From the NCBI RefSeq assembly GCF_013364355.1, contig NZ_CP054931.1, positions 2,170,001-2,234,000 on the forward strand: 64,000 nucleotides of DNA. The letters run 5' to 3'. This document shows positions 12,262 through 58,576 of this stretch, one piece after another. This stretch comes from Stenotrophomonas sp. NA06056. GTDB taxonomy: Bacteria; Pseudomonadota; Gammaproteobacteria; Xanthomonadales; Xanthomonadaceae. The translations under genes were made by a program, and so were the position numbers. The notes under the pieces were generated by a model. The model was not told where the DNA came from. It saw nothing but the letters and a program-made list of their open reading frames with translations, and did no database searches. Each line of letters starts with the position of its first letter. The first letter of the stretch is position 1.

Positions 12262-12366
12262 GACGGATGACGGCACGAAGAACGGCTCGCTGCTTTTGCA
12301 TGTTTTCCTACAGACAACGCAGCTGCATTGCGCAGCATGGCAGGAACATCCCAACGAGGTTCCGCC

Positions 12367-12783
12367 ATGCGTCGCCTGACTCTGCTCACCGCCCTGCTCT
12401 GCCCGGCCCTGGCCACGGCCGCCGACTGCACCCTGCCCGCCACGCTGGACCAGCGCCAGTTCACCAACCTCAGCGATCCGCTGTACGCGCCCGACAACCC
12501 CAACGCCGGACGCATGGTGCAGGTCAGCTTCGCCGGCAACCAGTACGTCCTGGACATCCTGGGAACCGACCTGCGCATCGGCGGCAGCTATCGCTACCAG
12601 CGCCTGGCCCCGCACGTGGCGGAAATCCGGATGAGCGAAAACCATCCGGCCGGACCCGCCCACTACACGCTGCTGCTGACCTGCCAGACCGACCGCCAGG
12701 GCCGCTTCATCTACACCCAGCACAACGGCCCCATCGCACCACGCCAGCGCCAGAATTCCGGCCGGTGGACCCTGCAGCCCTAG
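12367..12783 (+). CDS. Small exported protein of unknown function
   Basis: 138 residues from ATG 12367, chosen because a typical signal peptide starts there (MRRLTLLTALLCPALATAA, cut expected after ATA or TAA); the frame is open to 12328 but without signal-like sequence. The mature part of about 118 residues has two Cys (one right after the cleavage site, one in LLTCQTD) that could form a disulfide in the periplasm. No domain recognised. It stands alone between the fleQ terminator and a repeat-rich gap, so it is not part of the flagellar operons by arrangement. Confidence 0.7.
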   Translation: MRRLTLLTALLCPALATAADCTLPATLDQRQFTNLSDPLYAPDNPNAGRMVQVSFAGNQYVLDILGTDLRIGGSYRYQRLAPHVAEIRMSENHPAGPAHYTLLLTCQTDRQGRFIYTQHNGPIAPRQRQNSGRWTLQP

Positions 12784-12915: not shown

Positions 12916-13017
12916 GGCGGGGTGGGTCCGGTGGCGGGGGTGTCCGCGGCATGGATGCCGCGGCCAAGCCCCCATGGATGGGTTTACGGCGTCCCCCGCC
13001 ACCGGACCCACCCCGCC
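12916..13017. repeat. Long palindrome, copy A: 25-bp arms around a 52-base core
   Basis: Arms 12916-12940 and 12993-13017 are perfectly complementary over 25 bases. The 52-base core (12941-12992) folds into two smaller hairpins, CCGCGGCAT/ATGCCGCGG and CCCAT/ATGGG, and ends TTTACGGCGT. The same core, with different arms, occurs at 50273-50376 (inverted) and 50553-50652. It fills most of the 414-base gap before fliE. Confidence 0.9.
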
Positions 13018-19982: not shown

Positions 19983-19985
19983 TGG

Positions 19986-20045
19986 GTAGCGCCGGGCCAT
20001 GCCCGGCGGATACCCGACATTCCGCCGGGCATGGCCCGGCGCTAC
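19986..20045. repeat. Inverted pair of SMAG-type repeats
   Basis: GTAG-GCCGGGC-CAT-GCCCGGC (19986-20008) and its reverse (20023-20045, ending CTAC) face each other over a 14-base spacer, so the whole can fold as one long hairpin. It may terminate the fliE operon before the fliL promoter. Confidence 0.8.
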
Positions 20046-20093
20046 CGATATCAACACCCGACGGAATTCCGTCGCCCCCCTCCCCGACCGCTC

Positions 20094-50197: not shown

Positions 50198-50272
50198 ACG
50201 GAATATCTGGTTGTCCAGCCAACGGCGAAGCCCCTCGGGGTGGTCGCGGAAAGCGCCAGGCCGTTGAGGATT

Positions 50273-50376
50273 GGCCGGGAGGGTGGGTTGCGCAGGGGCC
50301 GCCGTGAATACGTCCTTGTAGGCTCGGGCGCGCCATCCATGGCGCTTACGCCCCTGCGCAGCCCACCCTCCCGGCC
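50273..50376. repeat. Long palindrome, copy B: 26-bp arms around a 52-base core
   Basis: Arms 50273-50298 and 50351-50376 are complementary over 26 bases with one G-T pair. The 52-base core (50299-50350), read on the - strand, aligns without gaps with copies A and C: it shares GCGCCATGGATGGCGC, GAGCC and ACGGCG, and the second inner hairpin has TAC/GTA where the others have CCC/GGG. It is inverted relative to copy C, 177 bases away. Confidence 0.9.
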
Positions 50377-50454
50377 ACAGACAGTTTCCGTGCGCGATCC
50401 ACCCCGGATTGAAGAAAGAAAAGCAAAGAGCAAAGCCACAGCTGCAGCGCTTCC

Positions 50455-50495
50455 GGGGTCAGATCCGTTTTCCGCAGGAAAACGGATCTGACCCC
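50455..50495. repeat. 19-bp perfect inverted repeat (GGGGTCAGATCC type)
   Basis: GGGGTCAGATCCGTTTTCC, 3 bases, and its exact reverse complement. It resembles the REP sequences widespread in Xanthomonadaceae. It lies between palindromes B and C. Confidence 0.85.
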
Positions 50496-50552
50496 TCTTT
50501 CCACTTGGAAACCCAACGCTCTTGCCGTCCGACACTGGAATGCTGGATGAGT

Positions 50553-50652
50553 CGTGCGGGCATGGGCTGGCGGGACCGTTGGCGCCATGGATGGCGCCAT
50601 CGAGCCCCCATGGATGGGTTTACGGCGTGTCCCGCCAGCCCATGCCCGCACG
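50553..50652. repeat. Long palindrome, copy C: 24-bp arms around a 52-base core
   Basis: Arms 50553-50576 and 50629-50652 are perfectly complementary over 24 bases. The core (50577-50628) matches copy A in its last 24 bases (GCCCCCATGGATGGG then TTTACGGCGT), while the first inner hairpin differs with matched changes (GGCGCCAT/ATGGCGCC against GCGGCAT/ATGCCGC). The rest of the 730-base gap 50140-50869 holds a terminator, copy B, the 19-bp repeat and a sigma-28 promoter; no gene. Confidence 0.9.
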
Positions 50653-50775
50653 GCTCCTTCTCAACACTGCAGAGCCGACCAATCGCCGTTGCTGTTGTCG
50701 TTGCTTCAAAGCCTGCCGCAGGCAGCGCCGCAGCCGCCGCTGCAAGGAAACCTGAATACGTTCGAACACCCCGCC

Positions 50776-58401: not shown

Positions 58402-58423
58402 GTCAAGGCACACCTGCACCTTG

Positions 58424-58490
58424 GTAGTGCCGGCCGCTGGCCGGCAGCACTCCTGACCCCGCGCATCTGCCGGCCAGCGGCCGGCACTAC
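58424..58490. repeat. Inverted pair of SMAG-type repeats between convergent genes
   Basis: GTAG-TGCCGGC-CGCT-GGCCGGCA (58424-58446) faces its reverse (58468-58490, ending CACTAC) across 21 bases. Situated between the convergent genes ending at 58401 and 58577, it could terminate both. Confidence 0.85.
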
Positions 58491-58576
58491 CGCATCAGGC
58501 AGCGCCCCTCCCGGCCACATCCCGGTGCAGCTCGACCTGGACCAAATCCATCGGGCCTGCCGCTGCAATATGCGCT

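Follow-up and report, generated by a model that had tools for sequence, protein, structure and literature searches.

The TwoAYGGAY motif (RF01731) was described by Weinberg et al. in 2010 from the human gut, gamma-Proteobacteria and Clostridiales, and was considered there a probable RNA that is probably not cis-regulatory (PMC2864571); its present type in Rfam is cis-reg. CsrA binding was later proposed for the motif in the RMfam paper, which also describes its external stem as poorly conserved (PMC4333381), and a further account notes two equal loops of unequal stability (PMC11661157). So far RF01731 has counted as a candidate RNA whose function is unknown. In the literature searched, where subscription papers were mostly outside the scope and sources were covered in part, no description of TwoAYGGAY as a high-copy repeat was found, and words from the core of the elements studied here returned chance matches only.

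Two further groups of described systems are relevant to this locus. CsrA/RsmA proteins have a published binding motif, CANGGANG (PMC6849547), and a CsrA dimer is reported to bridge GGA sites that lie 10–63 nt apart, with an optimum above 18 nt, while the ligands obtained by SELEX mostly have four pairs or fewer (PMC7652899). RsmU of Xanthomonas is an RsmA-binding sRNA that is cut from a 3′ UTR (PMC7694677). Among dispersed palindromes, REP elements are 20–40 bp long and carry a GTAG or CGTC tag (PMC3733652), and YPAL elements are ~168 bp long and lie at or beside dyad symmetry (PMC2229807). Ysr224 (RF02770), a Yersinia sRNA, is listed among the 20 most prevalent sRNAs in one review in which all copies per strain were counted (PMC9029176).

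Results

Three palindromes in the window

An earlier note on this DNA, made from the letters of the window (the whole stretch of 64,000 nucleotides analysed here), had claimed three palindromic elements, A, B and C, with variable arms around a constant core. The three elements are real, as their arms and their matches to a model of the family (R1, described below) confirm (Table 1). The extent given for A stands, whereas B is one base and C four bases longer on each side than had been stated. An inverted-repeat search of the window resolves arms of 25 nt that are 100% complementary in A, and arms of 28 nt that are 96% complementary in both B (50272–50299/50350–50377) and C. With B read on the minus strand, the 52-nt cores align without gaps in the strand-corrected alignment, as claimed, and the paired changes GGCAT/ATGCC versus GCCAT/ATGGC and CCC/GGG versus TAC/GTA are present in the sequence. 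What the note missed is the CsrA-type sequence shared by both loops, the divergent pairing of B with C and the existing family name.

Table 1. Positions of the palindromic elements and their loops in the window
Feature	Position	Strand	Description
Element A	12916-13017	+	arms 12916-12940 / 12993-13017; core 12941-12992; model R1 113.8 bits
A hairpin 1 loop	12951-12956	+	ATGGAT, C-G closing pair
A hairpin 2 loop	12974-12979	+	ATGGAT, C-G closing pair
Element B	50272-50377	-	5′ arm 50351-50377, 3′ arm 50272-50298; core 50299-50350; R1 106.4 bits
B hairpin 1 loop	50335-50340	-	minus-strand ATGGAT
B hairpin 2 loop	50312-50317	-	minus-strand AAGGAC
Element C	50549-50656	+	arms 50549-50576 / 50629-50656; core 50577-50628; R1 120.9 bits
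C hairpin 1 loop	50587-50592	+	ATGGAT
C hairpin 2 loop	50610-50615	+	ATGGAT
B-C centre	50378-50548	.	B+C, 1 of the genome's 50 divergent (-,+) pairs

Element A lies between an ORF at 12328–12783, which has no Pfam match, and fliE (Pfam FliE, E 2e-27), with a gene for a FleQ-type regulator farther upstream of the site, and B and C are flanked by two chemotaxis receptor genes. Because the family is distributed genome-wide, this flagellar and chemotaxis setting is not a special location. When the window was searched with R1 and filters off, A, B and C were found, followed by their own opposite strands at 37–43 bits; two unrelated palindromes at 19984 and 58420 score 35–38 bits. The window also contains perfect inverted repeats unrelated to the family at 19985–20046 (10-nt loop), 58423–58491 (19-nt loop) and 50455–50495 (3-nt loop), the last of which sits between B and C.

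A high-copy family that matches TwoAYGGAY

The family is well beyond chance expectation: the core pattern, with up to three mismatches, occurs 120 times in the genome versus once for the reversed pattern. Model R1 was built from the strand-corrected alignment of 23 copies, and in the host genome (4,519,894 bp) all 150 candidates scored, of 4,218, match it with at least 90.7 bits. The 79 stretches around candidates hold 162 matches of 90 bits or more, a lower bound for this genome; the next best match has 49.3 bits, and matches below 90 bits are mostly opposite strands of the same copies. The description of a dispersed family with variable arms and a constant core is therefore borne out, and the model search proposed in the note yields at least 162 copies with covariation rather than three copies alone.

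A whole-genome search with RF01731 at E up to 10 returned 15 matches, 14 of them on copies of this family. Two copies exceed the curated cut-off of 43 bits (46.1 and 45.4 bits) and 12 family matches fall below it; C scores 35.7 bits, below the cut-off, and A and B have no match in this search. In other genomes, a permissive Rfam scan places loci L200 (44.0 bits) and L289 (44.7 bits) above the cut-off. At the default threshold, Rfam reports nothing in the window, and the default scan misses RF01731 even in L282, L283 and L200, whose scores exceed its cut-off. The repeat goes largely unannotated, because the standard scan fails to report most of its copies. The earlier note gave no family name and had accepted that a match to one would count against novelty; RF01731 is such a match, with two copies in this genome above the curated cut-off. 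The two AYGGAY terminal loops on an enclosing stem that define TwoAYGGAY are present here as ANGGAN, and the palindromes are very probably TwoAYGGAY or a close sub-family of it.

Fold, covariation and loop sequence

The fold is a three-way junction in which a 26-bp outer stem of free sequence encloses the 52-nt core with its two hairpins. Hairpin 1 has up to 7 bp, and the 3 bp of hairpin 2 stand on a GCC/GGC base with a bulge of 5 nt (TTYAC or CTTGC). In the 23 copies from the host genome, aligned with MAFFT and with the structure specified by us, 96.5% of cells are paired and covariation is 0.625 versus 0.139 for shuffled controls, with none of 500 shuffles reaching 0.625 and slid controls at 0.097 or less. 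For other genera, 65 copies from 52 loci were aligned against the model and hence lean towards it; 98.2% of cells are paired and covariation is 0.951 versus 0.193 shuffled and at most 0.155 slid. Arm sequences differ widely between genera. The claim that compensatory changes reflect selection on folding is thus supported.

Both loops have the form C-ANGGAN-G in 206 of 215 copies (147/150 from the host genome and 59/65 from others), and in all 206 copies with both loops intact the spacing from GGA to GGA is 20 nt, which falls within the published bridging range for a CsrA dimer. The loop of hairpin 1 is ATGGAT in 144 of the 150 host copies. In the loop of hairpin 2 the A, G, G and A are present in 150 of 150 and positions 2 and 6 vary, often giving AGGGAC or AAGGAT, hence ANGGAN and not strict AYGGAY. 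This conservation, with positions 2 and 6 alone free, is that of the published motif CANGGANG. The searches are biased towards intact loops, but variation confined to these two positions is not something that they impose. The copies have the sequence features expected of a CsrA/RsmA-binding RNA: a GGA in the loop, the sequence CANGGANG and two sites at a distance that a dimer could span. The sequence TACANGGANGTA is found in 37 of 150 host copies and 26 of 65 others, and the exact SELEX consensus RUACARGGAUGU in none of the former and three of the latter. The G+C-rich stem of hairpin 1, at 6–7 bp, is unlike most SELEX ligands and counts against CsrA binding.

One strand is constrained

A G-U pair is tolerated in RNA, and the same site on the opposite strand is an A-C mismatch. 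Within the arms, the ratio of G-U to A-C is 91:16 in 152 distinct host copies, 38:6 in 46 copies from related species and 113:25 in 119 copies from other loci, all of these elements having been chosen for the presence of both loops. With arm-distinct elements counted once each, 36 have more G-U, 5 have more A-C and 44 are ties (p 8e-7). Among elements antisense to both neighbouring genes the excess persists (26 vs 5, with 34 ties), so that mutation linked to the transcription of the neighbours is no explanation. The excess of G-U, seen in 36 of 41 informative elements, thus identifies the GGA strand as the strand selected to fold. Hairpin 1 of the host copies has the opposite trend (2 G-U vs 14 A-C), a reversal attributed to one core type whose outer pairs are open, and in divergent gene contexts the ratio is 8:7 over 20 elements versus 197:34 elsewhere (p 0.005).

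The constraint is on one strand, for which RNA is the simplest carrier; single-stranded DNA would give the same pattern of wobbles. The earlier claim of selection on folding "in DNA or in RNA" accordingly narrows to folding of a single strand, the GGA strand, most simply as RNA. We consider it probable that the GGA strand acts as RNA.

Arrangement and gene context

A simple home-made gene finder predicts no overlap with a gene for any of the 62 single copies in the host genome or for 48 of its 50 pair regions; in other genomes, with a cruder finder trained on each locus, an overlap of more than 25 nt with a predicted gene is seen for 20 of 119 elements. All 50 close pairs in the host genome are divergent, minus then plus, and 121–255 bp apart except for one at 485 bp, and 15 of 17 close pairs in other loci are arranged likewise. 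Genome G123 (61 of 112 copies) has 15 of 24 close neighbours divergent, partly in tandem arrays, and the single close pair of genome G124 (54 of 61 copies) is on the same strand. The 162 host copies have a conserved 5′ flank (~CGGAAAYCTGTC, with a small dyad in some), and T-rich, hexamer-like repeats follow on the 3′ side; a common flank was not seen in other genera. The possibility that divergent pairs hold a promoter at their centre was considered and rejected: the 5′ flank in the host genome scores above its mirror, but so does the reverse strand, and the flank is lower in G+C. In other loci the promoter score does not differ between the 5′ flank and its mirror.

Single copies between tandem genes are in sense in 14 cases and antisense in 18 in the host genome, and tandem contexts in other loci give 17 and 17, so that there is no bias for the sense strand in either set. 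Convergent contexts are commonest (22 of 62 host singles and 38 of 76 placed elements elsewhere) and divergent contexts rarest, as would be expected of a transcription terminator or a stabilizer of mRNA 3′ ends in which the stem alone matters, and the stem is very stable, with −81 to −91 kcal mol−1 for the GGA strands of A, B and C. However, the U-tract of a terminator is missing: TTTT within 15 nt of the 3′ end is found in 2 of 159 host and 6 of 115 other elements, which does not exceed the counts for the mirror direction (4 and 7). A terminator would also leave the conserved loops, their fixed spacing and the strand-specific wobbles at antisense sites unexplained, and we regard this alternative as unlikely.

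Spread, csrA and REP-type transposases

The family is widely spread in Gammaproteobacteria. At E 1e-5, R1 matches 64 of 369 genomes and 56 of 271 genera in a sample of the class, although 11 of these 64, with a best E above 1e-12, are doubtful because unrelated palindromes in the window reach 35–38 bits. A sample of the family gave matches in 76 of 247 genomes, from 17 of 54 genera. In a phylum sample of 398 genomes, whose share outside the class is not given, the 28 with a match at E 1e-8 all belong to this class. A scan with the core pattern returned, among the 80 matches listed of at least 120, Marinobacter, Microbulbifer, Halopseudomonas, Rheinheimera, Stenotrophomonas maltophilia, Luteimonas, Lysobacter, Arenimonas and others. 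Within the genus, 36 further genomes were scored; nine have no match and several have at least 63 scored copies.

A csrA gene (PF02599) is found in 313 of the 369 class genomes and in 59 of the 64 positive for the element (lists read by eye); of the five positives without csrA, four are 67–88% complete and one (G496) is 98% complete. As csrA is common in the class in any case, its association with the element is weak, with a Fisher p of 0.084, or 0.016 in complete genomes (52/53 vs 228/261), uncorrected for relatedness, and this counts against the CsrA reading. A stronger association, likewise uncorrected, is seen for a REP-type transposase (NF047646, E 1e-10), present in 225 of the 369 genomes and in 53 of 64 positives versus 172 of 305 negatives (p 6e-5). 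This favours the chief alternative, a mobile palindrome of the REP/MITE kind whose folded DNA strand would be the substrate of a RAYT-like HUH or other transposase, the loops serving as recognition site and the RNA having no function. Such a palindrome would agree with the high copy number and dispersal of the family, and its single-stranded DNA would show the same strand-specific wobbles. However, 11 of the 64 positives (four of them doubtful carriers) have no NF047646 match at E 1e-10, so that the transposase is not required today, and the tie to RAYT genes that the earlier note suggested looking for is possible but not necessary.

Replication gives this alternative further but inconsistent support. 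In the host genome the GGA strand is co-directional with replication in 44 of 62 single copies (p 0.0013), whereas in G124 the bias is reversed (7:18 and 19:10; 54 of 61 copies) and in G549 there is none (35 of 103 copies). The origin was placed by eye in these comparisons, from dnaA-like first genes (host genome, G124 and G123) or sampled GC skew (G549). As a general rule, a replication-strand effect through single-stranded DNA of the lagging strand was rejected on the reversal in G124 and its absence in G549. A mobile DNA palindrome also leaves unexplained why the loops are identical to the CsrA motif down to its two free positions. We consider it a possible reading, though a clearly less probable one than CsrA binding.

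Evolution at fixed sites

The fliE site was compared in 30 loci from 30 genomes of the genus, the host included. Twenty loci have a scored copy, and 19 of these 20 keep both loops; the 20 contain 15 distinct cores within nearly constant arms, which looks like gene conversion between copies. Two loci (L239, L242) are without the element, two (L250, L251) show no trace of it, L228 has lost hairpin 1, L232 has a foreign insert in the core, and in the remaining loci the site is truncated or degraded where the contig ends. Of the 30 loci read at the B/C site, some of them truncated by the end of a contig, a strict loop pattern detects both copies in 11, a single copy in 12 and neither in 7; with the model, L277 and L280 also have two copies. 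Loss of the element can leave a half-element behind (L256, L276). In L266 an element is broken by an apparent insertion-sequence end with a transposase gene, as judged by eye. At the fliE site, the draft contigs L229, L233, L234, L238 and L247 end in or directly beside the element; the palindrome thus probably breaks short-read assemblies, so that copies in draft genomes are undercounted.

G+C-rich multi-hairpin sequences lie inside copies of relatives, at or near a loop, in hairpin 1 (L264, L269) and in the core or hairpin 2 (L257, L232), and a second mobile palindrome may target the loops of the element. Recombination sites of the folded-strand kind, such as attC, also combine asymmetry of the folded strand with arms that are paired yet free in sequence, and the structured sequences inside relatives' copies could be viewed as inserted at such a site. 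In the palindromes, however, conservation is found in the loop region rather than at the ends of the stem. Furthermore, C has no match in plasmid or phage collections, the L200 copy none in plasmid or E. coli collections and two core patterns none in viral contigs, each of these searches using a single sequence or pattern that would miss copies with other arms. A recombination site is therefore a very improbable explanation.

Discussion

The family behaves as a genomic repeat and a structured RNA together. We favor the interpretation, with a probability of roughly 0.6, that it is a repeat scattered through the genome and that RNA from its GGA strand binds a dimer of the global regulator CsrA. 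The main points against CsrA binding are the absence of a sense-strand bias, of a promoter signal beyond composition and of a U-tract, and the match of Ysr224 to the opposite strand. How could such a repeat function? We hypothesize that the GGA strand would be transcribed and that one CsrA/RsmA dimer would bridge both loops, with the outer stem merely isolating the core, which would leave its sequence free. The copies may jointly titrate CsrA, or may bring CsrA to the transcripts that carry them. New copies would arise rarely, existing copies would swap cores through gene conversion, and copies would be lost by deletion of the hairpin.

The family name and the proposal of CsrA binding are already known (PMC4333381). 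What is new is the number of copies and with it the scale of the family, its REP-like life, a constraint specific to one strand and the exact distance between the two GGAs. If the GGA-strand RNA binds CsrA, genomes of this kind would have hundreds of extra CsrA sites, which matters for models of CsrA titration; if it is not a CsrA-binding RNA, the same data indicate an unrecognised, strand-specific mobile palindrome. A more tentative idea, on which we would not yet rely, is that a spreading repeat serves as a CsrA decoy whose copy number, from none found to more than 160 among congeners, would tune CsrA and replace or supplement sRNAs of the CsrB/RsmZ type. Since copy number differs greatly among close species, this idea is testable.

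Several known systems share part of this design. With REP elements, REPINs, YPAL and RU-2 the palindromes have in common many intergenic palindromic copies, a likeness taken, for YPAL and RU-2, from published descriptions. Unlike REP elements, the palindromes are ~105 bp long with two inner hairpins, well outside the REP size, and a flank profile of the 162 copies shows no GTAG or CGTC tag beside the stem. CsrB, RsmX/Y/Z and RsmU, the RNAs that sequester CsrA/RsmA, likewise present GGA in loops and several sites for a dimer; they are single genes with multiple sites, whereas here a repeat offers two sites per copy and binding is predicted. The Ysr224 model aligns with the reverse complement of the core, that is, with the opposite strand, and reaches 33–39 bits on the better copies versus a cut-off of 70; what has been counted there as a highly prevalent sRNA may thus be the palindrome repeat itself. 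TwoAYGGAY differs in that hairpin 2 is longer in the Rfam model and that two of at least 162 copies here score above its cut-off. It shares with the palindromes, in the alignment, the two hairpins with AYGGAY-type loops, the CAAG linker and UUUAC-CGG after hairpin 2, as well as the poor conservation of the external stem described for the motif (PMC4333381).
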